Positions 1-16,679 of a stretch of DNA of 64,000 nucleotides are shown here, piece by piece. A program made the position numbers and the translations under genes. Every line of letters starts with the position of its first letter. Positions within the stretch are counted from its first letter, which is position 1. Source of the DNA: Lysobacter sp. MMG2 (GTDB lineage: Bacteria; Pseudomonadota; Gammaproteobacteria; Xanthomonadales; Xanthomonadaceae); the NCBI RefSeq assembly GCF_016735495.2, contig NZ_JAERQY020000002.1, positions 620,001 to 684,000 on the forward strand, read 5' to 3'. Below the pieces are notes generated by a model. The model did not search any database. It was not told the DNA's origin and saw only the letters and a list, made by a program, of their open reading frames with translations.

Positions 1-2
1 CC

Positions 3-794
3 GAGTACCCGCAGGCCGCCGCCGAGCTGCTAGGCGAAGCCGCCGCCGCCGCGGCACTGTTCACCGGCCACGCCAAGGTCGACGGTCGCCTCTCGGTGCA
101 GTTGCGCGGGCACGGCGCGCTGCGCACCCTCTTCGCCGAATGCACCGCGGCGGGCACGCTGCGCGGCATCGCACAGGTGGACGAGCACGCCCAAACGGTC
201 TCGCGCGACCTGCGCGAACTGGGTCCCGACGCAGTGCTCGCCATCACCATCGAGAACCCGTCCATCGACGGCCGCGAGCCCATGCGCTACCAGGGCCTGG
301 TGGCGCTGGAATCGGACTCGCTGACGGAGGCCTTCGAGGATTACTTCCGCCAGTCCGAGCAGCTGCCGACCCGCCTGCTGCTGGCCGCCGACGAACGGCA
401 GGTGGCGGGACTGATGCTGCAGAAGCTTCCGTCGGATCATGGGGATGACGACGGCTGGTCGCGTGTGGGCGCCCTATTCGACACGCTCACCACGCGCGAA
501 CTGCTGGAATGGTCGGCGGAGGACCTGCTGACCCGCCTGTTCCATGAGGACGGGGTCCAGGTCCTGGGACGCAAACCGCTCCGCTTTGCCTGCTCCTGCT
601 CCCGGGAACGGGTGGAATCGATGCTCGTCTCCCTCGGGGCCGCCGAGGCGGAGGCAGCGGTGGAGGCGGCCGGTGGCGCCGCCCAGATCCGTTGCGAGTT
701 TTGCGGACAGAGTTACCGTTTCGATGCGGAGGAAATCGCTAGCTTGTTTGCCGTGGCGACAACGGAGATGGCGGCCCCTGAAAGGCTGCAGTAG
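3..794 (+). CDS. hslO: Hsp33 redox-regulated chaperone (3' part)
   Basis: This is the C-terminal part of the cytoplasmic holdase Hsp33, which is activated by oxidation and protects unfolding proteins during oxidative stress. The frame is already open at base 3 and has no start in the window, so the gene begins upstream. Near the C-terminus two paired cysteine motifs are visible, CSCS (about 200 residues into the visible part) and CEFCGQ, which together bind Zn in reduced Hsp33. The end FDAEEIASLF also fits the family. No terminator is obvious after the stop. The next gene has its own promoter, so it is probably transcribed separately. Confidence 0.93.
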   Translation, partial: EYPQAAAELLGEAAAAAALFTGHAKVDGRLSVQLRGHGALRTLFAECTAAGTLRGIAQVDEHAQTVSRDLRELGPDAVLAITIENPSIDGREPMRYQGLVALESDSLTEAFEDYFRQSEQLPTRLLLAADERQVAGLMLQKLPSDHGDDDGWSRVGALFDTLTTRELLEWSAEDLLTRLFHEDGVQVLGRKPLRFACSCSRERVESMLVSLGAAEAEAAVEAAGGAAQIRCEFCGQSYRFDAEEIASLFAVATTEMAAPERLQ

Positions 795-817
795 CACCTC
801 CGACGTCACTCGGGGAA

Positions 818-846
818 TTGTTAAATAAACATAAACGGTCTATAGT
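818..846 (+). promoter_or_regulatory. Sigma70-type promoter of the secreted protein gene at 900
   Basis: TTGTTA (818-823) and TATAGT (841-846) are separated by exactly 17 bp, so the start of transcription should be near 853. A CCGGGTTTACCCGG dyad lies in the leader at about 877-890. No clear Shine-Dalgarno sequence precedes the ATG at 900, so translation may depend on leader structure. Motif and spacing are seen directly; activity is inferred. Confidence 0.6.
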
Positions 847-899
847 CGCGGTCCTCAAGAGAGGGGAACTCCGCCGGGTTTACCCGGTCGTACAAGACC

Positions 900-1757
900 A
901 TGAACACGCGCCTGCTTCGACTGCCATTGACCCTGATGCTCGCCCTGGGCGTGGTGTCGGGCGTCCATGCGCAGGCCAGGCGCACCCCGGAGACGACCTA
1001 CCTCCCGGTCTGGAACCAGACCAGCGGCAAGCTCGAATACCTCCTGCAGCTCGAGCCCACCGGCACCCCGGTGGCAGGCGCCCGCTGGCGCGTGGGCAGC
1101 AATACCCTCGACGCTGCGTTCGGCCTGGAAGCCGGCGACACCCTCGGCCTGGTCTGCGATCGCAAGACCGGACTGGCCGGTGCAATCGGCAACCTCGCCA
1201 ATCACTGCATGCTCGCCTCGATGGACGAGGACGACGACCATTCCGGCACGCGCCAAGGCACCCTCGGTGCCAGCCTGAGTCGCGCGGGTGGCAAGGTCGG
1301 CCTGGCGCTCGGCACGGGTCGCGACACCCTACCCGCCTGGCTGAGCCCCAACTCGAAGTTCAGCAAGGTCGACCAGAACACGCTCACCGTGTACGGCCAG
1401 AAGAACATCGGCCGCGAGGCCACGGTGTCCATCGGCGGCACCTGGGCACGCGCGAAGCTGATCCCGGCCGGCGAAGTGCCCGCCCTGGCCGATCGCTGGA
1501 ACACCAAGAGCCTCACGGTCGGCGCTGGCGTCGGCAACTTCAGCGCAAACATCGTCGGCCGCGTGGTCGACACCCCCGGCGAGCCGGGCCAGTGGGAAGG
1601 CCTCGGCGTCGGTCTGACCTGGCGCACGCCGTGGAGCGGCCAGCTCACGGTGGGCGCGGAGAACGTCGTGACCCGCGGCCGCAACCCGTTCGCCCCCGAA
1701 AACGGCGACAAGGACGAGGGCACCGTTCCCTATGTCCGTTACGAGCAGGATCTCTGA
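900..1757 (+). CDS. Secreted or outer-membrane protein of unknown function
   Basis: The gene encodes 285 residues that begin with a clear Sec signal peptide (MNTRLLRLPLTLMLALGVV, predicted cleavage after VHAQA near residue 24). The mature part is rich in glycine and in alternating hydrophobic residues (for example TVSIGGTWARA, LTVGAGVGNFSAN, LGVGLTWRTPW). This looks like amphipathic beta-strands, as in a small barrel or a beta-sandwich. One pair of cysteines occurs (VCDRK and NHCM). I do not recognise a named family. It has its own promoter and is followed by a possible terminator, so it is probably monocistronic. An envelope role is inferred from the signal peptide only. Confidence 0.7.
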   Translation: MNTRLLRLPLTLMLALGVVSGVHAQARRTPETTYLPVWNQTSGKLEYLLQLEPTGTPVAGARWRVGSNTLDAAFGLEAGDTLGLVCDRKTGLAGAIGNLANHCMLASMDEDDDHSGTRQGTLGASLSRAGGKVGLALGTGRDTLPAWLSPNSKFSKVDQNTLTVYGQKNIGREATVSIGGTWARAKLIPAGEVPALADRWNTKSLTVGAGVGNFSANIVGRVVDTPGEPGQWEGLGVGLTWRTPWSGQLTVGAENVVTRGRNPFAPENGDKDEGTVPYVRYEQDL

Positions 1758-1806
1758 CGATCCGCCGTCCGCGCCAGCCGCGGATTTAACTCCTTGAATC
1801 CAAAGA

Positions 1807-1842
1807 CCGCTCGCGGGGTTCTCGTGAGCGGCGCCTTCGTTT
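1807..1842 (+). terminator. Possible rho-independent terminator after the 285-residue gene
   Basis: CCGCTC (1807-1812) pairs with GAGCGG (1826-1831), and the inner bases extend the stem to about 11 bp with G-U pairs and a short loop. The following tract is only moderately T-rich (CGCCTTCGTTT), so efficiency is uncertain. Confidence 0.4.
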
Positions 1843-1920
1843 GGGCACATCTCTTGCCTTCCAGCCCCCTGCCGGGGTCGATACACCCGCGTACGGCCTT
1901 CACAAGTTCGAAACTGTGCA

Positions 1921-2044
1921 TTAACGACACTTTCACTTCTCTTCGAACGTGGTTAGGATCGGGTTGCCTTGCCGTTTTTGGCGTCTTCTTTGACGCCGTC
2001 GGTTAGGTCCCATGGGATCCATCGACTCACGTTTGGAGAGAGAG
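1921..2044 (+). promoter_or_regulatory. Promoter and conserved 5' leader of receptor 1
   Basis: A promoter TTTCAC (1931-1936), 17 bp, TAGGAT (1954-1959) is preceded by TTAAC at 1921. The likely transcript start lies at or just before CCTTGCC (1967). The leader then contains a perfect 6-bp hairpin GGCGTC-TTCTTT-GACGCC (1980-1997), a second dyad around TCCCATGGGA (2009-2018), and a GGAGAGAGAG Shine-Dalgarno stretch ahead of the ATG at 2045. The same ordered elements occur before receptors 2 and 3 with spacing differing by only 1-2 bases. Confidence 0.65.
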
Positions 2045-5000
2045 ATGAACTTGAAGACCACCCCGCTCCGCGACGCGATTGTTTACTCGCTCGCGGTCGG
2101 CACCACCGCCCTGGCCGGTACGGCCATGGCTCAGGAACAGCAGCAGACGACGACCACCCTCGATCGCATCGAGGTGACCGGTTCGCGCATTCGTCAGGTT
2201 GATATCGAGACCGAAGCACCGGTCCTGACCATCACCCGCGCGGACATCGAAAACCAGGGCTTCCAGTCGGTCGCCGACATCCTGCAGAACATTTCCGCCG
2301 TCGGCGCCCCGGCCATCAGCCGCGCTTCGCCGCTGTCGGCCGGTGAAAACGTCGGCGGCCAGTTCATCAGCATGCGCAACCTGGGTACCCAGCGCACGCT
2401 GATCCTGGTCAACGGCAAGCGCCTGGGCATCAGCACCTCGGGCCTGCAGGACGTTTCGCTGATCCCGACGGTCGCCGTCGAGCGCGTCGAAGTCCTGAAG
2501 GACGGCGCTTCCTCGATCTACGGCTCCGACGCGATCGCCGGCGTGGTGAACATCATCACCCGTTCGAACTTCGAAGGCGCCACGGTCGACGCGTACTACG
2601 GTCAGTACAGCGAAGGCGACGGCGAGACGACCCGCGCTTCGGGCATCCTCGGCTTCACCGGTGATCGCGGTTCGATCACGGCCGCCGTCGAATACCGCAA
2701 GGAAGAGGAAGTCTTCGCCAAGGATCGCGAGTACAGCGCGTACCCGCAGAGCTACAAGCATCCGACCCGCGGCTGGACCACCGCTTCGCAGTGGGGCCAG
2801 ATCACGGATGCGCCGGGTGCAGCGAACCCGGGCGGCGTCGGCACGCTCGTTCTGAACCCGGGTGCGGATTGGCGCAGCCTCGCCAACTACCACACGCAGA
2901 ACTCCAACACCGGCGCAACGGCTGCTGATCCGAACGGTTCGGTGCTCGACAAGAGCAACACGAACCAGCAGACGCACCTGCGCACGCCGCTGGAGAGCCG
3001 CTCGCTGTTCGTCAACGGCATCTTCGACATCACCGAGAACGTCCGTTTCCGCGGCGACATGCTGTACACCGACCGCGACGCCGAGCGTCAGGTCGCGGGC
3101 TATCCGTTCCAGAGCGCGTCGGCCGGCCTGATTCCGGGCGGCTTCAAGATGTCGCGCTTCAGCTACTACAACCCGGTCGGCACGCAGCACGGTTATGCCA
3201 CCCCGCGTGACATCAACTTCACCCGCCGTACCTGGGAAGTGCCGCGCGTCGACGCTCCGTCGTCGACCACCTGGCGCTTCTCCGCGGCCCTTGAAGGCAG
3301 CTTCGACGTCGCCGAGCGCATCTTCGACTGGGACGTCAACTACCTCTACAACAACAACAAGGTCCATCAGGAAAACTACGGCAACCTCAACGTCGACCGC
3401 GCCAAGCAGTCGACCGGTCGTTCCGAGCGTCAGGCCGACGGCAGCGTCGTCTGCTTGCTGCCGGACGATCCGAGCACGCCGGCCGTTGAGCGCGTGGTCA
3501 TCCCGGGCTGCGTCGCATGGAACCCGTTCATCCCGTACGGTCAGGTTGGCGAAGGTGGTCTCACCGGCAACCAGGCTCTGCAGGACTGGCTGTTCCAGCG
3601 CCTGAACTCCAGCGGCGAAACCGAAACCACCGTGTACTCGGCCAACATCAGCGGCTCGCTCGCGACGCTGCCGGGTGGTGACCTGGGCGTGGCGGTCGGC
3701 GTTGAAAACCGCAAGGAGCAGGGTCGCTTCATCCCCGACGCGCAGGCAGTGACCGGCAACTCGACGACGCTGGCCAGCGGTCCGACCCAGGGCAGCTACA
3801 CCGTCGACGAAATCTACGCCGAGTTGTTCCTGCCGGTCCTGGCCGACCTGCCGGGCGCGCAGGAGCTGAGCTTCAGCCTTGCCACCCGCTACTCGGACTA
3901 CGACACCTTCGGCGACACGCTCAACAGCAAGTTCGGTTTCAAGTGGAAGCCGATCGATTCGCTGCTGTTCCGCGGTACCTACGCTGAAGGCTTCCGTGCG
4001 CCGACGATCGCCGACCTGTACGGCGGCGGCTCGCAGACGTTCTCGTTCTTCACCGACCCGTGCGATACGAACTTCGGCACGGCGCGTACGAACGCGGCGG
4101 TCCGTACGGCGTGCGCCGGCGGCGCGGGCGTCCCGGGCGTTCCGAACCCGGCCACCTATCGTCAGCTCGCGCAGGGCTTCAACGCCGCCACGGCGCCGAA
4201 CGCCCAGACTCCGGTTCCGTTCTTCTCGGGTTCCAACCCGAACCTGATCCCGGAAACGTCCGAGTCCAAGACGCTGGGTCTGGTGTGGAGCCCGGGCTTC
4301 ATCGAAGGCTTCAACGTCAGCCTCGACTGGTGGAAGATCCGCATCGACGACACGATCGTTGCCGACTCGCCGACGCAGATCCTCAACGACTGCTACATCC
4401 AGAACGATCCGACCCGTTGCGCACTGTTCACTCGTGACGCGGCACAGGGCTACGTCAACAACCTTGCATTCGCCAGCATCAACGCGGGTTACCGCGAGGC
4501 CGAAGGTTGGGACATGGACCTGGGCTACCGCCTGACGACGGAAGGTTTCGGTAACTTCAACTTCTCGTGGCAGACGACCTACACCACGAGCGACGAGATC
4601 AAGACCGACACCAACCCGGCCACCAAGGCGCAGCAGCTGGTTGGCTACGCGACCTCGCCGGGCTTCGTGGGCACCTTCCGCGTTCGTTCGAACACGAGCC
4701 TGAGCTGGGATCTGGGTTCGTGGGGCGCGACGTGGGGCATGCGCTACTACTCGGGCATGAAGGAAACCTGCTTGTCGGCCACGCTGTTCCCGGATGAGTG
4801 CTCGAACCCGGACTTCGCCGTGGCGAACCCGGTGCCGGCGCAGGCCCGTGCGATCAACGAGATCGGCTCCAACACCTTCCACGATCTGGAATTCCGCTGG
4901 AAGGCGCCGTGGAACGCGACCGTCGCCCTGGGTGCGAACAACGTGTTTGATCACCAGGGTCCGGTGGTGTACAGCCAGCCGAACGCGAACGTGTCCTACC

Positions 5001-5056
5001 AGGGCCAGTTCGACATCGGTCGTTTCATCTACATGAAGTACCAGCAGCGCTTCTGA
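2045..5056 (+). CDS. TonB-dependent outer-membrane receptor 1 of a tandem trio
   Basis: This 1003-residue outer-membrane transporter takes up a large ligand using energy from TonB-ExbBD. The ATG at 2045 is chosen over one at 2012 because GGAGAGAGAG sits just upstream and a signal peptide (MNLKTTPLRDAIVYSLAVGT...AMA) follows. A TonB-box/plug start, TLDRIEVTGSRI, begins near residue 39. The plug continues with VERVEVLKDGASSIYGSDAI, and the barrel ends in the canonical terminal phenylalanine (KYQQRF). Length and style match the large Caulobacter/Xanthomonas-type receptors. It is the most diverged of the three tandem copies, with different loops. The ligand cannot be read from sequence, and no Fur box is seen upstream, so iron is not the obvious substrate. 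Confidence 0.93.
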   Translation: MNLKTTPLRDAIVYSLAVGTTALAGTAMAQEQQQTTTTLDRIEVTGSRIRQVDIETEAPVLTITRADIENQGFQSVADILQNISAVGAPAISRASPLSAGENVGGQFISMRNLGTQRTLILVNGKRLGISTSGLQDVSLIPTVAVERVEVLKDGASSIYGSDAIAGVVNIITRSNFEGATVDAYYGQYSEGDGETTRASGILGFTGDRGSITAAVEYRKEEEVFAKDREYSAYPQSYKHPTRGWTTASQWGQITDAPGAANPGGVGTLVLNPGADWRSLANYHTQNSNTGATAADPNGSVLDKSNTNQQTHLRTPLESRSLFVNGIFDITENVRFRGDMLYTDRDAERQVAGYPFQSASAGLIPGGFKMSRFSYYNPVGTQHGYATPRDINFTRRTWEVPRVDAPSSTTWRFSAALEGSFDVAERIFDWDVNYLYNNNKVHQENYGNLNVDRAKQSTGRSERQADGSVVCLLPDDPSTPAVERVVIPGCVAWNPFIPYGQVGEGGLTGNQALQDWLFQRLNSSGETETTVYSANISGSLATLPGGDLGVAVGVENRKEQGRFIPDAQAVTGNSTTLASGPTQGSYTVDEIYAELFLPVLADLPGAQELSFSLATRYSDYDTFGDTLNSKFGFKWKPIDSLLFRGTYAEGFRAPTIADLYGGGSQTFSFFTDPCDTNFGTARTNAAVRTACAGGAGVPGVPNPATYRQLAQGFNAATAPNAQTPVPFFSGSNPNLIPETSESKTLGLVWSPGFIEGFNVSLDWWKIRIDDTIVADSPTQILNDCYIQNDPTRCALFTRDAAQGYVNNLAFASINAGYREAEGWDMDLGYRLTTEGFGNFNFSWQTTYTTSDEIKTDTNPATKAQQLVGYATSPGFVGTFRVRSNTSLSWDLGSWGATWGMRYYSGMKETCLSATLFPDECSNPDFAVANPVPAQARAINEIGSNTFHDLEFRWKAPWNATVALGANNVFDHQGPVVYSQPNANVSYQGQFDIGRFIYMKYQQRF

Positions 5057-5078
5057 TCCGCTCACGCGGAGCAACTCG

Positions 5079-5107
5079 AGCGGCCCCGAAAGGGGCCGCT
5101 TTTTTTT
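5079..5107 (+). terminator. Rho-independent terminator after receptor 1
   Basis: A 9-bp perfect stem AGCGGCCCC / GGGGCCGCT with a GAAA loop is followed by an unbroken run of T's. This is a very strong intrinsic terminator. It separates receptor 1 from receptor 2, so the trio is not one operon. Confidence 0.92.
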
Positions 5108-5210
5108 GGCCCGTCGACGGCCCCTGCCGGACCGGCCGGCCTCTCCCTCCATACGCCCATTCAGGGTTTCGTATGTTCAAACTTTGCCGTCACTGGCCGA
5201 TAACTGGTCG

Positions 5211-5336
5211 TTAACACGTCTTTCACTTTTCTGATGGCGCGGTTACGATCCGGTTAAGCCTTGCCGTTTTTGGCGTCTTCTTTGACACCGCCGGCGGGCC
5301 CCATGGGAAGTACCACCCTGCTTTACGGAGAGAGAG
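5211..5336 (+). promoter_or_regulatory. Promoter and conserved 5' leader of receptor 2
   Basis: TTAAC (5211), TTTCAC (5221-5226), 17 bp, TACGAT (5244-5249), CCTTGCC (5259), CCCATGGGA (5300-5308) and GGAGAGAGAG before the ATG at 5337 repeat the layout of the receptor 1 leader. From CCTTGCC onward the two leaders are identical for more than 20 bases. The first hairpin here has one mismatch (GGCGTC against GACACC). Confidence 0.65.
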
Positions 5337-8300
5337 ATGACCTTGAAGACCACCCAGCTTCGCGACGCGATTACCTTCGCGCTCGCGGTGGGCAGCACCG
5401 CCGCTGCCGGCACCGGCATCGCCGTGGCCCAGGAAAGCTCGCAGCAGCCGACCACCCTCGATCGCATCGAGGTGACCGGTTCGCGCATCAAGCGCGCCGA
5501 CATCGAAACGTCCCAGCCGATCTTCTCGCTGAGCCGCGAGGACATCTCCTCGCAGGGCCTGACCTCGGTCGGCGACGTGATCCAGAACATCACCGCCAAC
5601 GGCTCCACGCTCAACAGCACGTTCAACAACGGCGGTAACGGCGAAACCCGCGTCAGCCTTCGCGGCCTGGGCTCCAACCGCACCCTGGTGCTGGTCAACG
5701 GCCGTCGTTGGGTCGGTGGCACGGGCCTCGGCGGCGCGGTCGACCTCAACACCATCCCGACCGCCGCGGTCGAGCGCATCGAAGTGCTGAAGGACGGCGC
5801 CTCGACGATCTACGGCTCCGACGCCATCGCCGGCGTCGTGAACGTGATCCTGCGCCAGAACTTCGAAGGCGCCGAAGCCAACGCTTACATCGGCCAGTTC
5901 GACAAGGGCGACGGCTTCCGCCAGGGCTACGACTTCACCATCGGCACGACCTCCGACCGCTTCTCGGCCATGCTGGGCTTCGGTTACGTCAAGGAAGAGC
6001 CGGTCATGGCCGGCGATCGCGATATCTCCAAGGAGCCGATCGTCGGTACCGGCAATGCCTTCGGCAGCTCGACCTCGCCGAACGGCAACTACAGCGTCAC
6101 CAACAACGCCTGCCGCGGCGCACCGACGGCGACCAACCCGCTCGGCCCGCTGCTGCGCTGCCTGCCGAACGGCCAGGTGGGTTCGTTCACGTACAACAAC
6201 GGCCAGAGCGGCGCCAACTGGCGTCCGCGTTCGGTGCCGGCCGACATCTACAACTTCGCGCCGGACAACTACCTGCTGACGCCGCAGGAGCGCCGTTCGG
6301 TGTTCGGTAGCGCCACCGCCGACATCACCGATGAAGTCCGCTTCAAGTCGACGATCACCTACAACCAGCGCGTCTCCGAGCAGCTGCTCGCGGCGATGCC
6401 GGTCGTGCTGGGTCGCGCGGCTCCGGGCACCAACGCTTCCGACATCCGCGTCAGCGCGACGAACTTCTACAACCGTCCGGAAAACGGCGGCATCGGTCAG
6501 GAAGTCGACTGGATCCAGCGTCGCGCCGTCGAGACCGGCGGTCGTTCGTTCAACCAGGACGTGCGTACCTTCGCGATGTCGGCCGGCCTGGAAGGCACGC
6601 TGAACTTCGCCGAGAAGTACTTCGACTGGGAAGCCGGTTACTTCCGCGGTGAGAACAAGGCCAACAACACCACCTTCGGCCTGTTCAACGTCATCGCGCT
6701 GCGCCAGGCCCTGGGCCCGTCGTTCCGCGACACCGATGGCGTGATCAAGTGCGGCGCGCCGGGCGCGATCGTCACCGGCTGCGTGCCGATGAACATCCTC
6801 GGCGCTCCGGGCACGATCACGCAGGACATGCTGGACTTCGCGACGTTCACCGCGCACGACGAGTACAGCTACACGCAGAAGAGCTACTACGCCAACATCA
6901 GCGGCGATCTGTTCTCGCTGCCGGGCGGCCCGCTGGGCTTCTCCTTCGGTCTGGAACACCGCACCGAAGACGGCTACGACTCGCCGGACGCGCTGATCAA
7001 CTCGGGCAACACCACGGGCAACGCGCGCACCGCGACCGCCGGTGGCTACGACCTGGACGAGGCCTACCTCGAACTGGCGATCCCGGTGCTGGCCGACCTG
7101 CCGGGCGCCAAGCTGCTCGACTTCTCGCTGGCCACGCGCTACTCGGATTACTCGAACTTCGGCGACACGCTCAACAGCAAGTTCGGTTTCCGCTGGAAGC
7201 CGATCGACGACCTGCTGGTTCGTGGTAACTGGTCGGAAGGCTTCCGCGCGCCGTCCATCGCCGAGCTGTTCGCCGGCCAGGCCGACTCGTTCCCGCAGCT
7301 CGCCGACCCCTGCAACGTGAACAACTTCGCCGACCAGATCCCGGCGGCGCAGGCACAGTGCGTGCGTGAAGGCGTTCCGGCCAACGGCTACGTGCAGAAC
7401 AACCCGCAGATCCGCATCACGGTCGGCGGCAACCCGGAACTGCAGCCGGAGAAGTCCGAGTCCTACACGCTGGGCTTCGTGTACAGCCCGAACTACGTGG
7501 AAGGCCTGGACGTCTCGCTGGACTGGTGGCAGATCAAGATCGAGGACGCCATCACCACGATCGGCGGCGCCAACATCATCCAGCAGTGCCTTGACTCGGG
7601 CGGCACCAGCCCGGCGTGCTCTCTGTACAGCCGTGAACCGGGTGGCCAGATCATCGACCTGCTCGACACCACCACCAACATCGGCGGCACGAAGGTGGAA
7701 GGTTACGACCTGACGGTGAGCTACCGCCTGCCGGAAACCGCGTGGGGCAAGTTCAGCTTCACGTGGGACACCACCTACATGTCGAGCTACGAGAACGACA
7801 TCAACGGTAACGGTGTCTACGGTGAGGACAACCTCCAGGTTCCGGCCATCGGCGCTCCGTTCTTCTTCGACGAAGGCGGCAACCTGGTCGGCGAGTACGA
7901 CGGTCCGAACCAGTTGAACTACTGGCGCATCCGCTCGAACCTGGCCACGCGTTGGGAGATGGGCGACTGGGGTGCGACCTGGAACGTCCGCTACTACTCG
8001 TCGCAGAGCGAGCCGTGCCAGAACTTCGAGGACTACGGTTACTCGTTCCTGTGCACCGACCACACCCGCACCACGGGCCTGCCGACGGACAGCAACGGCA
8101 ACGGCGTTTGGGACGGCACGGCCGGTGGCGACGCGATCACCCCGGTGGCGTCGGCCGAGCACCACATCGGCTCCACGACGTACCACGACGTGAGCGCGTA
8201 CTGGAATGCGCCGTGGAATGCGCGCATCACGGTCGGCATCAACAACCTGTTCGACAAGAATCCGCCGATCTCGGCGACGACCTTCGCGAACTCGTTCGAC

Positions 8301-8357
8301 CCGCAGTACGAAGTCCCCGGCCAGTTCTTCTACTTCCGCTACTCGCAGAAGTTCTGA
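5337..8357 (+). CDS. TonB-dependent outer-membrane receptor 2 of the trio
   Basis: This 1006-residue receptor has the same architecture as its neighbours: a signal peptide ending GIAVAQ, the TonB-box/plug start TLDRIEVTGSRIKRADIET, the plug motif VERIEVLKDGASTIYGSDAI, and a barrel ending in phenylalanine (RYSQKF). It closely resembles receptor 3 through the plug and most of the barrel and differs mainly in segments that should be extracellular loops, such as the region near residues 225-270. This points to a fairly recent duplication followed by loop divergence. It has its own promoter and terminator. The substrate is unknown. DNA around the TonB box is also identical to receptor 1 over a few dozen bases, which may reflect gene conversion. 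Confidence 0.93.
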   Translation: MTLKTTQLRDAITFALAVGSTAAAGTGIAVAQESSQQPTTLDRIEVTGSRIKRADIETSQPIFSLSREDISSQGLTSVGDVIQNITANGSTLNSTFNNGGNGETRVSLRGLGSNRTLVLVNGRRWVGGTGLGGAVDLNTIPTAAVERIEVLKDGASTIYGSDAIAGVVNVILRQNFEGAEANAYIGQFDKGDGFRQGYDFTIGTTSDRFSAMLGFGYVKEEPVMAGDRDISKEPIVGTGNAFGSSTSPNGNYSVTNNACRGAPTATNPLGPLLRCLPNGQVGSFTYNNGQSGANWRPRSVPADIYNFAPDNYLLTPQERRSVFGSATADITDEVRFKSTITYNQRVSEQLLAAMPVVLGRAAPGTNASDIRVSATNFYNRPENGGIGQEVDWIQRRAVETGGRSFNQDVRTFAMSAGLEGTLNFAEKYFDWEAGYFRGENKANNTTFGLFNVIALRQALGPSFRDTDGVIKCGAPGAIVTGCVPMNILGAPGTITQDMLDFATFTAHDEYSYTQKSYYANISGDLFSLPGGPLGFSFGLEHRTEDGYDSPDALINSGNTTGNARTATAGGYDLDEAYLELAIPVLADLPGAKLLDFSLATRYSDYSNFGDTLNSKFGFRWKPIDDLLVRGNWSEGFRAPSIAELFAGQADSFPQLADPCNVNNFADQIPAAQAQCVREGVPANGYVQNNPQIRITVGGNPELQPEKSESYTLGFVYSPNYVEGLDVSLDWWQIKIEDAITTIGGANIIQQCLDSGGTSPACSLYSREPGGQIIDLLDTTTNIGGTKVEGYDLTVSYRLPETAWGKFSFTWDTTYMSSYENDINGNGVYGEDNLQVPAIGAPFFFDEGGNLVGEYDGPNQLNYWRIRSNLATRWEMGDWGATWNVRYYSSQSEPCQNFEDYGYSFLCTDHTRTTGLPTDSNGNGVWDGTAGGDAITPVASAEHHIGSTTYHDVSAYWNAPWNARITVGINNLFDKNPPISATTFANSFDPQYEVPGQFFYFRYSQKF

Positions 8358-8397
8358 TCGGTACATTCGTCCCGTACGAATGGCACTTGCGTTACTT

Positions 8398-8428
8398 CTA
8401 CGGCCCCGAAAGGGGCCGTAGTTGTTTG
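8398..8428 (+). terminator. Rho-independent terminator after receptor 2
   Basis: A 10-bp perfect stem CTACGGCCCC / GGGGCCGTAG with a GAAA loop is followed by TTGTTTG. The core is nearly the same hairpin as the one after receptor 1, which supports duplication of the whole unit including its end. Confidence 0.85.
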
Positions 8429-8473
8429 TGGCCGTTGCAGAAATGAAACGACGGCCGTTCAGAATGTTGAAGA

Positions 8474-8600
8474 TTAACAACACTTTAAGTATTGGCTCGG
8501 CGGGTCTACCATCGGCCCGACCTTGCCGGACTTGGCGTGGTTTTTTGCTCCGCCGGCGGGGTTCCCATGGGAACAAACTGAGACCGACTTGGAGAGAGCG
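8474..8600 (+). promoter_or_regulatory. Promoter and conserved 5' leader of receptor 3
   Basis: TTAAC (8474), TTTAAG (8484-8489), 17 bp, TACCAT (8507-8512), CCTTGCC (8521), GTTCCCATGGGAAC (8562-8575, a perfect 14-base palindrome) and GGAGAGAGCG before the ATG at 8601. The order and distances match the leaders of receptors 1 and 2, although the sequence between elements has diverged. Confidence 0.62.
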
Positions 8601-11600
8601 ATGATCTTGAAGACAACAAAGCTCCGGGACGCCATTAGCATGACGCTCGCCCTGGGCACGACAACCGCAGTCGGCATGGGTACCGCACATGCCCAGGACC
8701 CCGCCCCCGCCCCCGACCAGGAAGCCACCACCCTCGATCGCATCGAAGTCACCGGTTCGCGCATCAAGCGCGCGGACATCGAGACTTCGCAGCCGATCTT
8801 CTCGCTCAGTCGCGACGACATCGCCGCACAGGGCCTCACCTCCGTCGGCGATGTGATCCAGAACATCACCGCCAACGGTTCCACGCTCAACACGACGTTC
8901 AACAACGGCGGCAACGGCGACACCGGCGTCAGCCTGCGCAACCTCGGTGCGAACCGCACTCTGGTGCTGGTCAACGGCCGTCGCTGGGTCGGCGGTGCAT
9001 CCGGCACCGGCCTGGGTGGCCAGGTCGACCTCAACTCGATTCCGACCGCCGCGGTGGAACGCATCGAAGTGCTGAAGGACGGCGCCTCGGCGATCTACGG
9101 TTCCGACGCCATCGCCGGCGTTGTCAACGTGATCCTGCGCCAGAACTTCGAGGGCGCCGAAGCCAACGCCTACATCGGCCAGTACGACAAGGGCGACGGC
9201 TTCCGCCAGTCCTACGACTTCACCATCGGCACGACGTCCGACCGCTTCGCCGCGATGCTCGGCTTCGGTTACGTCAAGGAAGACCCGGTGATGGCGGGCG
9301 ACCGCTACATCTCCAAGGAGCCGATCTACACCACCGGCGCAGCGCTGGGCGGCAGCTCCACCACACCCGACGGCAACTTCAGCGTGCGCTTCGGCGAGTG
9401 CTTCACCGACCCGGACGATCCGGATTCGGCCACGCGCTGCCGTCCCAACGCGACGCCGGGCAGCACGGGCACACCGAATTCCCCCGGCAGCTTCACCTAT
9501 GACCGCGGCGCGGCGAGCACGGCATGGCGCAACTTCACCGGTGCCGACATCTACAACTTCGCGCCGGACAACTACCTGCTCACCCCGCAGGAACGCCGCT
9601 CGGTGTTCGGCAATGCCTCGGTGGAAATCACCGACGACATCCGCTTCAAGACCACGCTGACCTACAACGAACGCCAGTCCGAACAGCTATTGGCGGCGAT
9701 GCCCATCACGCTGGGCGTGCCGGTCGCCGGCACCAACGCCGGCAACGTGGTCATCAGCGCCGACAGCATCTACAACCCGTTCGGCGAAGACATCGACTGG
9801 GTGCAGCGTCGTGCGGTTGAAACCGGCGGTCGCCGTTTCAGCCAGGACGTGCGCACTTTCGCGATGAACGCGGGCTTCGAAGGCACGCTGAACTTCGCCG
9901 AGAAGTACTACGACTGGGAAGCCGGCTACTTCTACGGGCGCAACAAGGCCAACAACACCACCAACGGCCTGTTCAACGTGATCTCGCTGGGCAACGCGCT
10001 GGGGCCGTCGTTCGTCGACGCTGAAGGCGTGCCGACCTGCGGCACGGCAGCCAATCCGATCGCCGGATGCGTGCCGATGAACCTGCTCGGTGGCGCGGGC
10101 AGCATCACGCAGGACATGCTCGACTACACGACCTTCGTCGCGCACGACGAGTACAGCTACACGCAGAAGACCTACTACGCCAACATCGGCGGTGATCTGT
10201 TCGATCTGCCCGGCGGTCCGCTCGGCTTCTCGGTCGGTGTCGAACACCGCACCGAGGACGGCTACGACTCGCCGGATGCGCTGATCAATTCCGGCAACAC
10301 CACCGGCAACGCGCGCACCGCCACCAACGGCGGCTACGACGTGGACGAGGCGTACCTGGAACTGGCGATTCCGCTGCTCGCGGACCTGCCGGGCGCCAAG
10401 CTGCTCGACTTCTCGGTGGCCACGCGTTACTCGGACTACAGCAACTTCGGCGACACGCTCAACAGCAAGTTCGGTTTCCGCTGGAAGCCGATCGACGACC
10501 TGCTGATCCGCGGCAACTGGTCCGAAGGCTTCCGCGCACCGTCCATCGCCGAACTGTTCGCCGGCCAGGCCGACTCGTTCCCGCAGCTCAGCGATCCCTG
10601 CAACCAGGTCAACTTCGGCAACCAGACGCCGCCCGCGCAGGCCCGCTGCCGCGCTGAAGGCGTGCCCGACGGCGGTTATGCGCAGAACAACACGCAGATC
10701 CGCATCACCGTCGGCGGCAACCCGAACCTGCAGCCGGAAAAGGCCGAGTCGACCACCGCCGGCTTCGTCTACAGCCCGAGCTTCGTCGAGGGCCTGGACG
10801 TTTCGCTGGACTGGTGGAAGATCAAGATCGAGGACGCGATCACCACCGTCGGCGGCGCCAACATCATCCAGCAGTGCATCGACTCCGGCGGCACCGGCGC
10901 GACCTGCGATCTCTACAGCCGCCAGCCGGGCGGCGAGATCCTGTCGCTGCTCAACACCACGGTGAACATCGGCGGCACCAAGGTCGAGGGTTGGGACATG
11001 ACGGTGAGCTACCGTCTGCCCGAGAACTCCTGGGGCAAGTTCAGCTTCACCTGGGACACGACCTACCTGTCCGAGTTCCTCAACGACAACGACGGCGACG
11101 GCCGTTACGGCGAGGACATCTTCACCGAGCCGGCAATCGGCGCGGAGATGGCGGCCAACGAAGGCGGCAACCTGGTGGGCGAGTACGACGGCCCGAACCT
11201 GCTCAACTACTGGCGCATCCGCTCCAACCTGGCGGCGCGTTGGGAGAAGGGCGACTGGGGCGCGACCTGGAACGTGCGCTACTACTCGTCGCAGAACGAG
11301 CCCTGCCAGGCCTTCGAGGACTACGGCTACGCCTGGTTGTGCACCACGACCGGCCGCACCCGCAGCGTGCCGACCGACAGCAACGGCAACGGCATCTGGG
11401 ACGGCCCGGCCGGCGGCGACAGCTTCACGTCGATCGCCGCGAACGAGCACCACATCGGCGCCTCGACCTTCCACGACGCCAGCGTGTACTGGAATGCGCC
11501 GTGGAACGCGAAGGTCACGGTGGGCATCAACAACCTCTTCGACAAGAACCCGCCCATCGCCTTCACCTCGTTCGCCAACTCGTTCGACCCGCAGTACGAC

Positions 11601-11645
11601 CTGCCCGGCCGCTTCTTCTACTTCCGCTATTCGCAGAAGTTCTGA
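8601..11645 (+). CDS. TonB-dependent outer-membrane receptor 3 of the trio
   Basis: This 1014-residue receptor starts at the ATG preceded by GGAGAGAGCG. A longer reading from 8523 would run back through the conserved leader and is rejected. The signal peptide (ending GTAHAQ) is followed by a Pro/Ala-rich stretch and the same TLDRIEVTGSRIKRADIET TonB-box region. The plug motif VERIEVLKDGASAIYGSDAI and terminal RYSQKF match receptor 2 almost exactly. Differences from receptor 2 cluster in loop regions, for example an inserted Cys-containing segment near residues 270-300. A 2OG-Fe(II) oxygenase gene follows just after its terminator. Substrate unknown. Confidence 0.93.
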   Translation: MILKTTKLRDAISMTLALGTTTAVGMGTAHAQDPAPAPDQEATTLDRIEVTGSRIKRADIETSQPIFSLSRDDIAAQGLTSVGDVIQNITANGSTLNTTFNNGGNGDTGVSLRNLGANRTLVLVNGRRWVGGASGTGLGGQVDLNSIPTAAVERIEVLKDGASAIYGSDAIAGVVNVILRQNFEGAEANAYIGQYDKGDGFRQSYDFTIGTTSDRFAAMLGFGYVKEDPVMAGDRYISKEPIYTTGAALGGSSTTPDGNFSVRFGECFTDPDDPDSATRCRPNATPGSTGTPNSPGSFTYDRGAASTAWRNFTGADIYNFAPDNYLLTPQERRSVFGNASVEITDDIRFKTTLTYNERQSEQLLAAMPITLGVPVAGTNAGNVVISADSIYNPFGEDIDWVQRRAVETGGRRFSQDVRTFAMNAGFEGTLNFAEKYYDWEAGYFYGRNKANNTTNGLFNVISLGNALGPSFVDAEGVPTCGTAANPIAGCVPMNLLGGAGSITQDMLDYTTFVAHDEYSYTQKTYYANIGGDLFDLPGGPLGFSVGVEHRTEDGYDSPDALINSGNTTGNARTATNGGYDVDEAYLELAIPLLADLPGAKLLDFSVATRYSDYSNFGDTLNSKFGFRWKPIDDLLIRGNWSEGFRAPSIAELFAGQADSFPQLSDPCNQVNFGNQTPPAQARCRAEGVPDGGYAQNNTQIRITVGGNPNLQPEKAESTTAGFVYSPSFVEGLDVSLDWWKIKIEDAITTVGGANIIQQCIDSGGTGATCDLYSRQPGGEILSLLNTTVNIGGTKVEGWDMTVSYRLPENSWGKFSFTWDTTYLSEFLNDNDGDGRYGEDIFTEPAIGAEMAANEGGNLVGEYDGPNLLNYWRIRSNLAARWEKGDWGATWNVRYYSSQNEPCQAFEDYGYAWLCTTTGRTRSVPTDSNGNGIWDGPAGGDSFTSIAANEHHIGASTFHDASVYWNAPWNAKVTVGINNLFDKNPPIAFTSFANSFDPQYDLPGRFFYFRYSQKF

Positions 11646-11668
11646 GCGGGTGTGTCGCTTGCACGACC

Positions 11669-11700
11669 GCTACGGCCTCGCATGAGGCCGTAGCGTTTTT
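11669..11700 (+). terminator. Rho-independent terminator after receptor 3
   Basis: An 11-bp perfect stem GCTACGGCCTC / GAGGCCGTAGC with a GCAT loop is followed by GTTTTT. It separates receptor 3 from the oxygenase gene 42 bases downstream. Confidence 0.9.
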
Positions 11701-11741
11701 GGCTACACTGCGGACATCGCTGCCCGTCTGTCCGGTTCCGC

Positions 11742-12401
11742 ATGCCCTTCGAGATCAACCCCGTCTTCGCGGTCCCGCTGGCGCAGGACATGCTGCCCGA
11801 TGCGTCCGGCCTCAATGCGCAACTGCGCGCGCTGATCCTCTCGCGCGAAGCGCAGGGCGACCGGTACGCCAATCCGAATCCGTCGCTGAAACAGCAGCAC
11901 GGGGTGTTCGAGAGCGACTTCAACCTGTTCGCCTGGCCCGAGGCCTGCGTGCAGCAGCTGCGGCAGTTCTGCTGGGCCACGCTCGGCCGCGCGATCGCCG
12001 ATCTCAATGGCTACACCGCGCAGGAAATGCAGCGGCTGCAGATCTTCTCGCACACCTGGTTCCATGTGACCCGGCACGGCGGGTTCACGATCATGCATAC
12101 GCACCCGATGGCGTCGTGGTCGGGCGTGTACTGCGTCGACCCGGGCACCACGCCGCCAGATCGGCCCGAGTCGGGCGTGCTTCGATTCCACAATCCGCAT
12201 CACTACAGCAACTACTTCATGGACGCGGGCAACCAGCGCTTGCGTGCGCCGTATCACCATGGCACGTACAGCATCCGGTTCCAGGCGGGGCAGCTCGTGC
12301 TGTTCCCGTCGTGGCTGCAACATGAAGTGCTGCCGTTCTATGGCGACGATGAACGCATCACCATCGCGTTCAACTGCTGGTTCGGGATGAAGGAAGGCTG
12401 A
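11742..12401 (+). CDS. Putative 2OG-Fe(II) oxygenase (TIGR02466-like)
   Basis: This 219-residue cytoplasmic protein has the double-stranded beta-helix pattern of the TIGR02466 group of 2-oxoglutarate/Fe(II) dioxygenases. Candidate metal ligands are H119 and H121 in the HTHP motif and H194 in LFPSWLQHEV. R205 in ERITIAFN would bind 2-oxoglutarate. Such enzymes hydroxylate a protein, peptide or small molecule; the substrate is unknown. It follows receptor 3 by less than 100 bases but lies beyond a strong terminator, so it needs its own start. A TACACT -10-like element sits at 11704-11709. No good Shine-Dalgarno is visible. The call rests on motif pattern, without an alignment. Confidence 0.75.
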   Translation: MPFEINPVFAVPLAQDMLPDASGLNAQLRALILSREAQGDRYANPNPSLKQQHGVFESDFNLFAWPEACVQQLRQFCWATLGRAIADLNGYTAQEMQRLQIFSHTWFHVTRHGGFTIMHTHPMASWSGVYCVDPGTTPPDRPESGVLRFHNPHHYSNYFMDAGNQRLRAPYHHGTYSIRFQAGQLVLFPSWLQHEVLPFYGDDERITIAFNCWFGMKEG

Positions 12402-15077: not shown

Positions 15078-16679
15078 TTAAGGGCCGGGGTTCTGAATGG
15101 TGTCCTGCGGCTCCCGCCAGGGCGCGAGCCCTTCCAGGAGCGGCCCCAGCTTGTCCGCGTAAGGCGCCCAGGCAGCCTTGCGGTTCTTGATGATGCCCCC
15201 GCGCATCTGCGGGCTGCTCGCGGTGGCCACGGCGCCGGCGCGGTCCAGCGTGGTCGCCGATTCGTTCCAGGGCAGGCCGCAGAACTCGAGCACACCGCGC
15301 ATCACGGCCTCCGGGTCGGCGACGAGCTCGTCGTAGTGCACATCGAGGATGCGACCGGGCATCACCGCATGCCAATGCGCCATCAGGCCGCGGTACTGGC
15401 CATACCACTCGGCCAGCTCGCGCTGGTCGTAGGAGAAGGTGTTCACGTCGGAGAACATCGTGCGCAGGTTCGAGAAGCACGTGTCCACCGGGTCGCGCAC
15501 CATGTGCAGGATGCGCGCGTGCGGCAGCGCCCGGGCGATGAAGCCCAGGTTGAGGAAATTCGACGGCAGTTTCTCGGTCAGCACCGCACGGCCCCGTGCG
15601 CGGCGCGCGGTGTGTTCGAGGAAGCGTTGCCCGAGCGCGGCGTAGTCGACGTTGGGCGCGCGCTTGACCAGCTCCGCATCGACCACGCCCTTGTTGCGGT
15701 GGTCGGCGAAGTAGCGCATCTGCGAGGTGAACGAGTACGTCTCGCCGCCGTCGGTGACATCGGGATGGCCGCCCAGCAACTGCTCCAGCAGCGTGCTGCC
15801 CGAGCGGTGCATGCCGACCACGAACACCGGCCGGTACGGCGCGGGCGCATCGGCGTGCGCCTGGCCTGCGGCAACGAAGTCCGCGTCGCAGGTCTTCGCC
15901 AGTCCTTCGAACATGCGCCGCGCATCGAGCCGGTCGTGCGGCGTGAGCATGCGCTTGGTGCGGCACGCATGCTCCAGTGCCTGCCACGATTCGTCGAAGT
16001 CGCCCAGGTCGTGCGCTTCGTTGTGCACCGCGTAGGCGAGGTACACGCGGCTCTCGCTGCCGGCGGGCACGCGCGGGATCAGCGCCTTCATGCGCGCGAC
16101 GTGGTTGTTCTCCGGCGTCTGCTTGCGCAGGCGCGAGAGCACCCAGTGCGCCTGCGCGTAAGTCGGCAGCAGCGCGATGCACTGCTCCAGTTCCTGCTCG
16201 GCCTCGTCCATCTGGCCGAAGAACATGCGCACGACGCCGCGGAAGTAGCGCGTCGGCGGATGCTTGGGATCGCGCTGCACGGCGACGTCGAGCAGCTGCA
16301 TCGCCAGGTCGTTCTCGCCGCTGGTGCTGATCAGCATGGCCATTTCGGTGAGCCACTGCGCCGAGCGGCGTTCCTGCCAGCGCGAATGCTCGATGCATTC
16401 CATCAGCAGCGCCGGCTCGTTGAACAAACGCAGCGCGCGGGCGAGGTTCAACACCGGCTCGTCGCCCTGCGGCCTGGCGGCAAGCGCGCGCACCGCGTAC
16501 TCGCGCGCGTCGCGGTAGCGTCCCAGCGAAAGCGCCATGCGCGAGGCGCGCAGCATGGCCATGACGTGCTTGGGATCGCGTTCGAGCACGCCGTCGTAGG
16601 CCTTGAGCGCCGCCGCCCACTGCCCCTGCTTCGCATAGGTTTCGCCCTGCTGCCACAGCGATGCCACGTTCACGTCCAT
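15078..16679 (-). CDS. TPR-domain sulfotransferase
   Basis: This 533-residue protein has TPR-like helical repeats in about residues 1-200, followed by a sulfotransferase domain. The PAPS 5'-phosphosulfate loop VFVVGMHRSGSTLLEQ is at residues 285-300, and the 3'-phosphate motif ILHMVRDPVDTCFSNL is at about 390-405. Such enzymes move sulfate from PAPS to a hydroxyl, often tyrosine or a sugar; the TPR part may hold a protein substrate. GGAGG lies directly against the ATG at 16679, so a GTG two codons later (16673) may be the true start. It overlaps the upstream sulfotransferase-like gene by 10 bases, suggesting translational coupling. The substrate is unknown. Confidence 0.88.
   Translation of the reverse strand: MDVNVASLWQQGETYAKQGQWAAALKAYDGVLERDPKHVMAMLRASRMALSLGRYRDAREYAVRALAARPQGDEPVLNLARALRLFNEPALLMECIEHSRWQERRSAQWLTEMAMLISTSGENDLAMQLLDVAVQRDPKHPPTRYFRGVVRMFFGQMDEAEQELEQCIALLPTYAQAHWVLSRLRKQTPENNHVARMKALIPRVPAGSESRVYLAYAVHNEAHDLGDFDESWQALEHACRTKRMLTPHDRLDARRMFEGLAKTCDADFVAAGQAHADAPAPYRPVFVVGMHRSGSTLLEQLLGGHPDVTDGGETYSFTSQMRYFADHRNKGVVDAELVKRAPNVDYAALGQRFLEHTARRARGRAVLTEKLPSNFLNLGFIARALPHARILHMVRDPVDTCFSNLRTMFSDVNTFSYDQRELAEWYGQYRGLMAHWHAVMPGRILDVHYDELVADPEAVMRGVLEFCGLPWNESATTLDRAGAVATASSPQMRGGIIKNRKAAWAPYADKLGPLLEGLAPWREPQDTIQNPGP

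Follow-up and report, generated by a model that had tools for sequence, protein, structure and literature searches.

Three genes for TonB-dependent receptors, each encoding Plug and beta-barrel domains, stand in tandem in a 64,000-nt stretch of DNA from Lysobacter sp. MMG2 (the window, in whose positions all coordinates are given), and each of them follows the same series of short motifs. Could this series be a shared control element, acting as RNA or as DNA, or is it what gene duplication has left behind? An earlier note on this DNA had suggested a control element, RNA or protein, common to the three leaders, perhaps a structured RNA, and the present analysis supports a shared structured RNA leader through many further copies and compensatory changes. 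The motifs are TTAAC (1921, 5211 and 8474), CCTTGCC (1967, 5259 and 8521), CATGGG (2011, 5302 and 8566) and the start codon (2045, 5337 and 8601), and all nine spacings given in that note are exact: 46, 48 and 47 bases from TTAAC to CCTTGCC, 44, 43 and 45 from CCTTGCC to CATGGG, and 34, 35 and 35 from CATGGG to ATG. The arrangement CCTTGCC-N(35-50)-CATGGG occurs three times in the window against 0.05 expected, and none of 100 shuffles reaches three. The statement that the sequence between these elements has diverged holds only in part: the stretches of about 195 bases running from upstream of TTAAC into the codons share 78% mean column identity, and a conserved hairpin sits between CCTTGCC and CATGGG.

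Distribution of the leader

Named genomes scanned with receptor 2 gave 44 loci, mostly from Lysobacter, and these together with the loci of the MMG2 genome itself furnished 26 distinct leaders of the form CCTTGC...GGAGAG...ATG. A covariance model (R1) was built on 24 of them, those of L025 and L053 being omitted, and a second one (R2) on 106 aligned matches (alignment A4, 92 distinct leaders). In the MMG2 genome R1 finds three copies, the next score being 12.9 bits; the pattern CCTTGCC-N(25-55)-CCATGGG has six matches in the whole genome, and the covariance model matches just the three of the window. All 12 genomes of the genus carry the leader according to R1, as do 130 of 297 genomes of the family (30 of 54 genera), and R2 raises the count to 154 of 297, again in 30 of 54 genera. 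Searches covering more than 40 genomes were run with strict filters, by which weak matches are lost. The family search with a covariance model that the earlier note had called for thus returned copies with compensatory changes, and the outcome it had named as refuting, no further copies and no covariation, did not arise in this search or in the pair counts given below.

Genomes with the leader hold one to four matches. The expectation that it would precede many different TonB receptors failed: the MMG2 genome has 15 matched stretches of related receptors yet three leader copies, and most relatives with a match have one to three, mostly in tandem at one syntenic place. A second true copy lies on another contig in at least one genome of the Stenotrophomonas group (G169, L205).

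An order-wide draw gave 45 matching genomes out of 299, 43 of them from the family itself. Twenty regions were fetched round mostly weak matches of this draw, and 17 of them show both the promoter box described below and a receptor start with LRDA or LREA. Box and start are absent from the other three, namely a weak match inside the family (L206) and both matches outside it (L207 and L208, from G356 and G451); all three were rejected on that ground, and the element therefore seems confined to the family. A sample of the model matches had its downstream codons read, namely 53 representatives (leaders less than 85% identical to one another) and these 20 regions, and for seven promoter matches: every representative runs into an open frame with an LR-D/E/S/N-A signal-peptide motif, and all 26 first leaders precede proteins with LRDAI or LREAI near residue 8. 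Judged from these sequences, the leader is an old feature kept across a bacterial family and not the remnant of a recent duplication, and the further copies with compensatory changes upstream of related genes point to a structured cis-acting RNA.

The earlier note knew of no named element that matches, and Rfam release 15 agrees, with no gathering-score match in positions 1-12000 of the window or in eight diverse loci; under permissive settings the matches stay at chance level (E 0.48 inside receptor 2 on the minus strand; E 0.31 overlapping the L133 leader, at 18.4 bits, the gathering score being 41). No account of the receptor leader was found in the open-access literature, which is for that reason weak evidence of absence.

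The 5'-terminal hairpin

The structural core of the leader is a 5'-terminal hairpin of about 42 nt, P1/P2, with CCTTGCC as its 5' arm. In alignment A4 (106 matches), paired cells amount to 86.5% against 80.1% after shuffling, two-sided changes occur at 17 of 23 pairs (shuffled, 10.9) and the covariation score is 0.254 (shuffled, 0.157); none of 500 shuffles reaches any of these three values, and slid partners give at most 57.6% paired cells and a covariation of at most 0.062. By stem, the two-sided changes fall on 14 of 16 pairs in P1/P2, 1 of 2 in P3 (the CATG hairpin) and 2 of 5 in P4 (a hairpin at the Shine-Dalgarno sequence). The covariation thus suggests that in P1/P2 the pairing matters and the letters do not; evidence from folding and alignment on the other side is set out with the proposed function.

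Because A4 was fitted to the covariance model, and the pair counts depend on such fitting, structure tests free of any alignment were added. Compared with dinucleotide shuffles, P1/P2 has a z of -2.47 in 53 representatives (94% below -1) and of -2.46 in 70 leaders, and the control windows lie between -0.34 and +0.27, with the exception of the window over the first codons (-1.58), which was traced to a further hairpin, P5, in the signal-peptide codons. When the halves of the hairpin were swapped between leaders, the native value was -19.21 against -15.50 (sd 0.30; 0/40; a cost of 3.7 kcal/mol; n=70), and -19.23 against -16.66 (sd 0.35; about 7 sd; a cost of 2.6 kcal/mol; n=53).

The minimum-energy fold of nt 1-52 contains the terminal hairpin in 68 of 70 leaders, including all three of the window, the two others (L121 and L135) being shorter leaders; over this length the hairpin would form first while transcription proceeds. 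Folded alone and read by eye, 20 of the 26 first leaders show P1/P2 in the minimum-energy structure, many of the 26 with the small central hairpin P3 and the Shine-Dalgarno hairpin P4 as well; P1/P2 is missing from this single fold in window leaders 2 and 3 and in L024 (3921), L025, L027 (3922) and L053. In the leaders of third receptors of the genus (L024 3921, L027 3922, L053 3921 and window 8516-8540) the single-sequence fold lets the 5' arm form a hairpin of its own, of the type UGCCG-GACU-UGGCG, which is a possible alternative state.

Promoter, start site and locus

Upstream of the hairpin, the anatomy is that of a promoter: a box TTAAC-N4-CTTTAATT (with variants in the window; written out as a consensus, TTAAC-N4-CTTT(A/C)A-T), 17 bp, TANNNT, 6-8 nt, and then P1/P2. 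It was parsed in 85 of the 92 distinct leaders, the seven in which the box or the -10 was not recognised being dropped. Ten of the 17 box positions are invariant, of which seven were fixed by the search expression, TTAA(C/T)-N4-(C/T)TTT, which itself prescribes TTAA and TTT; beyond these, C is invariant before TTT, and so are A at the second base and T at the fourth base past it. The spacer is 17 bp in 83 leaders and 18 in two, and the distance from the -10 box to the first P1 pair column is 6, 7 or 8 nt in 20, 33 and 32 leaders, respectively, that is, in 85 of 85. The -35 hexamer of the receptor promoters is not the sigma-70 consensus, and a scan of positions 1700-12000 for a TTGACA/TATAAT promoter found none (1.0 expected in shuffles).

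The searches indicate a box nearly private to the receptor family that carries the leader. When up to two mismatches are allowed, the 17-mer turns up 21 times across the 12 genomes of the genus, and 20 of these matches fall at the leader element; the remaining one, G007:C3:76435-76451 (L181, two mismatches), is the sole match in the genus away from the receptor family. A stricter pattern for the promoter was matched 47 times in 99 family genomes and never in the reversed control, and 41 of the 47 adjoin a covariance-model match by coordinates. The six others were fetched together with one of the 41: four (L227-L230) precede LRDA receptors, L226 is ambiguous, and L225 has no recognisable start. 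L225 combines a perfect box and a stable 5' hairpin (z -2.82) with the lack of an open start within 150 nt and is possibly a decayed copy or another gene. Eight leaders found through the promoter were folded, these seven and L056, and z lies below -1 in L225, L227, L230 and L231. L227 and L056 (the latter from the 44-locus scan) have the same box before a related receptor and a 5' hairpin of unrelated sequence, that of L056 being no more stable than its shuffles. Conversely, three tandem copies (L026 656, L034 2089 and L034 5495) have the leader behind an altered promoter in which GTTAAAACCGTGTTGGA replaces the box, which suggests that promoter and leader are separable.

A terminator-like hairpin of 10-12 pairs stands on the 3' side of each receptor (5078, 8398 and 11668), suggesting that each receptor is a separate transcription unit, as it probably is. 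As the terminator scan in its entirety gave 11 sites where shuffles gave 8.0 (sd 2.7), the argument is one from the length and place of these three hairpins.

The earlier note had pointed to a hairpin with a CATG loop (P3), whereas the core of the leader proves to be the hairpin of CCTTGCC with its partner. Shuffled sequences fold as well as the P3 region does (z -0.29, n=67), and P3 was rejected as a universal core and retained just for a CC-NN-GG subset of 40 among 70 leaders, in which its arms fit each other (native -2.40 against -1.81 swapped, sd 0.15, 0/40). The CATG hairpin is the least general part of the leader. An upstream reading frame beginning at the ATG of CATGGG was also rejected: CCATGG is present in 61 of 92 leaders, in frames 0, 1 and 2 in 21, 30 and 10 cases, the ATG is often lost, and the frame stops before or at the receptor start in 14.

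P4 (CCAAG/CUUGG) is a weaker hairpin that covers the beginning of the Shine-Dalgarno sequence in many copies. At least four pairs are possible in 71 of 92 leaders, a permissive count with no null, and by the same permissive reading receptors 1, 2 and 3 of the window have 4, 3 and 5 pairs (CUGAG/CUUGG in the third, with wobble pairs). As a group P4 gives a z of -1.75 (n=52) or -1.34 (n=70), and the half-swap -2.92 native against -2.51 (sd 0.13). P5, unusual in lying so near the start codon, occupies the same signal-peptide codons in the relatives as in the window; as a group it exceeds synonymous recodings in stability, with a z of -1.35 over 53 representatives where seven coding windows further downstream give -0.44 to +0.01, and swapping its arms changes -17.93 to -16.29 (sd 0.24).

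The features of the window are collected in Table 1. The proteins of receptors 1 and 2 share 43% identity, and no listed NCBIfam match of the three receptors reaches its curated cut-off. Elsewhere in the genome, a paralogue at C5:382471-385281 (L011, L013), which shares 70% and 51% identity with receptor 2 over two stretches, has GGAGAGAGA without being matched by the model; by itself, therefore, the Shine-Dalgarno stretch is unspecific.

A neighbourhood made of 3-794, 900-1757, 2045-11645, 11742-12401 and 15078-16679 (minus strand) recurs in relatives. Its genes are Hsp33-like, of the XOO1806 family, the receptors, a 2OG-Fe(II) oxygenase and TPR/sulfotransferase-like; the labels Hsp33-like and sulfotransferase are presumptive and our own, the latter based in part on a weak match to NoeE. 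Among the 44 named loci (flanks of up to 4 kb), searched with the window proteins as queries, the oxygenase occurs 20 times, the TPR/sulfotransferase-like gene 21, the XOO1806-family gene 17 and the Hsp33-like gene 14, and across the matched loci the neighbours mostly keep the order of the window; in two loci of Stenotrophomonas type (L049 and L064) the upstream genes are present and the flank has no 2OG match. These genes may form one functional cassette. From the shared neighbourhood it follows that the leader has in the main been inherited as the beginning of a single syntenic receptor locus, which multiplied in tandem in Lysobacter-type genomes.

Table 1. Features of the three receptor units in the window
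Feature	Position	Strand	Basis
Promoter box, receptor 1, TTAACGACACTTTCACT (TTTCAC 1931-1936 at -35 position)	1921..1937	+	sequence, box searches
-10 box TAGGAT, receptor 1, 17 bp past TTTCAC	1954..1959	+	sequence
5'-terminal hairpin P1/P2, leader 1; outer stem from CCUUGCCG, inner stem GGCGUC-UUCUUU-GACGCC	1966..2008	+	covariance model, minimum-energy folds of nt 1-52 and whole leader
TCCCATGGGA dyad (P3 region), leader 1	2008..2017	+	sequence
Shine-Dalgarno GGAGAGAGAG, receptor 1; P4 weak at most (4 pairs, permissive count)	2035..2044	+	
TonB-dependent receptor 1, 1003 aa, Plug and beta-barrel domains	2045..5056	+	domain matches
Coding hairpin P5 region, signal-peptide codons of receptor 1	2066..2104	+	group result
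Terminator-like hairpin 3' of receptor 1	5078..5101	+	hairpin scan
Promoter box, receptor 2, TTAACACGTCTTTCACT (TTTCAC at -35 position)	5211..5227	+	sequence
-10 box TACGAT, receptor 2, 17 bp past TTTCAC	5244..5249	+	sequence
5'-terminal hairpin P1/P2, leader 2	5258..5299	+	covariance model; minimum-energy fold of nt 1-52, absent from whole-leader fold
CCCATGGG dyad (P3 region), leader 2	5300..5307	+	sequence
Shine-Dalgarno GGAGAGAGAG, receptor 2; without a 4-pair P4	5327..5336	+	sequence
TonB-dependent receptor 2, 1006 aa, Plug and beta-barrel domains	5337..8357	+	domain matches
Coding hairpin P5 region, receptor 2	5358..5396	+	group result; copy not in the 53 representatives
Terminator-like hairpin 3' of receptor 2	8398..8421	+	hairpin scan
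Promoter box, receptor 3, TTAACAACACTTTAAGT (TTTAAG at -35 position)	8474..8490	+	sequence, box searches
-10 box TACCAT, receptor 3, 17 bp past TTTAAG	8507..8512	+	sequence
5'-terminal hairpin P1/P2, leader 3	8520..8562	+	covariance model; minimum-energy folds of nt 1-52 and of leader with 30 coding nt, absent from fold of leader alone
P3 GUUCC-CAUG-GGAAC, leader 3	8561..8574	+	motif count
P4 CUGAG-ACCGA-CUUGG, leader 3, overlapping first GG of Shine-Dalgarno	8578..8592	+	motif count, folding
Shine-Dalgarno GGAGAGAG, receptor 3	8591..8598	+	sequence
TonB-dependent receptor 3, 1014 aa, Plug and beta-barrel domains	8601..11645	+	domain matches
Coding hairpin P5 region, receptor 3, -13.4 kcal/mol, weaker than most	8622..8660	+	folding
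Terminator-like hairpin 3' of receptor 3	11668..11695	+	hairpin scan

Function of the leader and its alternatives

The model we propose, to which we give an even chance of being correct, combines a 5'-terminal mRNA stabiliser like that of ompA with a tuning of translation. The non-consensus promoter would drive each receptor separately, and transcription would start 6-8 nt past the -10 box, so that the RNA would begin at the base of P1/P2. The hairpin would then shield the 5' end from decay, thereby providing a long-lived message for an outer-membrane protein; a pairing that is kept while its letters drift is what would be expected if the fold alone matters. In many members the start site would lie between P4 and P5, both of which probably tune initiation. 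The analogy is with Escherichia coli ompA, whose 5' stem-loop stabilises the mRNA (PMC7509114). The two cases share a hairpin at the 5' end (presumed here) of the mRNA of an outer-membrane protein, a start region downstream, and the conservation of pairing and not of sequence; they differ in sequence and in family, and the promoter box, P4 and the coding hairpin are extras of the receptor leader.

The element, its distribution, the geometry of its promoter and the covariation of P1/P2 were established computationally, P4 and P5 more weakly, and several results weigh against the model. The minimum-energy fold of the whole leader holds the terminal hairpin in just 54 of 70 leaders and, in the window, in leader 1 only. 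RNAalifold predicts no pair from a sequence-only MAFFT alignment of 70 leaders (an alignment of 26, likewise from sequence only, gave a partial consensus of -5.7 kcal/mol), and whole leaders are not more stable than controls (z -0.67 against -0.75 upstream and -0.55 in coding sequence), for which reason whole-leader stability was dropped as evidence. Shared ancestry by itself shifts the swap controls by up to 3.8 sd (-1.9 to +3.8 sd in ten control windows), which makes the swap results for P5 (about 6.8 sd) and P4 (about 3 sd) weaker than they appear. A strong P4 is absent from window receptors 1 and 2 and from several groups of leaders. In 12 relatives without a model match P5 has a mean z of -0.28 (range -1.98 to +0.78), and four of these 12 lie below -1.4, including L056 behind the same box. 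Finally, the promoter-only leaders L226, L228, L229 and L056 have z-scores that are not below -1 (the set being -0.83, +0.23, +0.17 and -0.03).

Could the leader choose between two states? In such a translational switch, which we regard as a tentative and rather unlikely alternative, CCAAG would pair either upstream with the (C)UUGG or UGGG of the CCC(A/U)UGG block (P3') or downstream with the Shine-Dalgarno CUUGG (P4), and a small RNA, a protein or a ligand would shift the balance. UGG-N-CCA is present in 60 of 92 distinct leaders, with inner forms such as UGGGA/UCCCA and UGGGU/ACCCA, and 49 of the 92 have both P3' and P4 with at least four pairs, although these counts, too, rest on permissive criteria with no null; CCA is kept in several paralogue leaders that have just three P4 pairs, and in L134, L139, L214 and L215 two CUUGG flank one CCAAG. 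However, the pairings are not universal, the Stenotrophomonas-group leaders in that count being without P3' and the L137/L138 group without P4, and within the P4 class the GG is predicted to be poorly accessible throughout.

A trans-acting partner would have a precedent in the related genus Xanthomonas, where the small RNA sX13 acts on mRNA leaders and raises the mRNA of the TonB receptor XCV3572 in one medium (PMC3771888). The likeness found in the portion of that paper drawn on here is a post-transcriptional control exerted close to the start of leaders rich in G, with one TonB receptor mRNA dependent on sX13; the difference is that sX13 acts in trans on G-rich motifs, and that portion describes no shared leader fold and shows no link to the receptor leader. 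In its most far-reaching form, which we likewise hold to be doubtful, the leader would be a family-wide cis-regulatory RNA with a dedicated promoter and three hairpins enclosing the start site, CCAAG choosing between its two partners, and a signal would set the decay and translation of one receptor family jointly.

Control at the level of DNA only, TTAAC-N4-CTTTAATT and the TCCCATGGGA dyad being transcription-factor sites and the RNA structure incidental, appears less probable still. It would account for a box that is strongly conserved even if seven of its ten invariant positions were fixed by the search, that replaces the -35 consensus and is nearly private to the receptors, and for a dyad that is a perfect palindrome in many leaders; yet the pairing of P1/P2 survives changes of its letters, and the dyad is lost or broken in many members, 31 of the 92 distinct leaders having no CCATGG. 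The box may well be, in addition, a factor site beside the RNA element. An RNA thermometer, in which heat would melt P4 or another pairing and free the Shine-Dalgarno sequence, is quite improbable. Although a short hairpin overlaps that sequence, and warming from 10 to 60 C increases the predicted probability that GGAG is unpaired (leader 1, 0.04 to 0.45; leader 2, 0.29 to 0.42; leader 3, 0.25 to 0.47), chiefly at temperatures over 42 C, the GG is nearly flat over the same range among the representatives (0.08-0.14 in 32 with P4, 0.31-0.35 in 21 without), and two of the three window receptors have, as stated, no strong P4 to melt. We consider it very improbable that the 5' hairpin is a riboswitch or an aptamer for a protein: its position and fold are conserved ahead of transport genes, but loops, internal bases and even arms of P1/P2 vary, no conserved unpaired core was seen in P1/P2 on inspection of 92 and 70 aligned leaders, and Rfam offers no match. 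That the leaders are functionless remnants of gene duplication is hardly credible and already contradicted, for although the three receptors are tandem homologues, the three gene starts align at 78% while the proteins of receptors 1 and 2 are only 43% identical, the leader occurs across 30 of 54 genera, and neutral drift would have to yield the compensatory pattern.

In conclusion, the leader is real, old and ordinary in kind, a structured 5' leader which our model would make a stabiliser and tuner of its message. To a family known, through Xanthomonas, for very many TonB receptors (PMC3771888), it adds a structured element absent from Rfam that marks one old receptor lineage. Its free letters, set against a fixed pairing at the 5' end, offer a natural test of whether terminal stem-loops are selected for mRNA longevity, and its nearly private promoter box would give a handle on the regulator.

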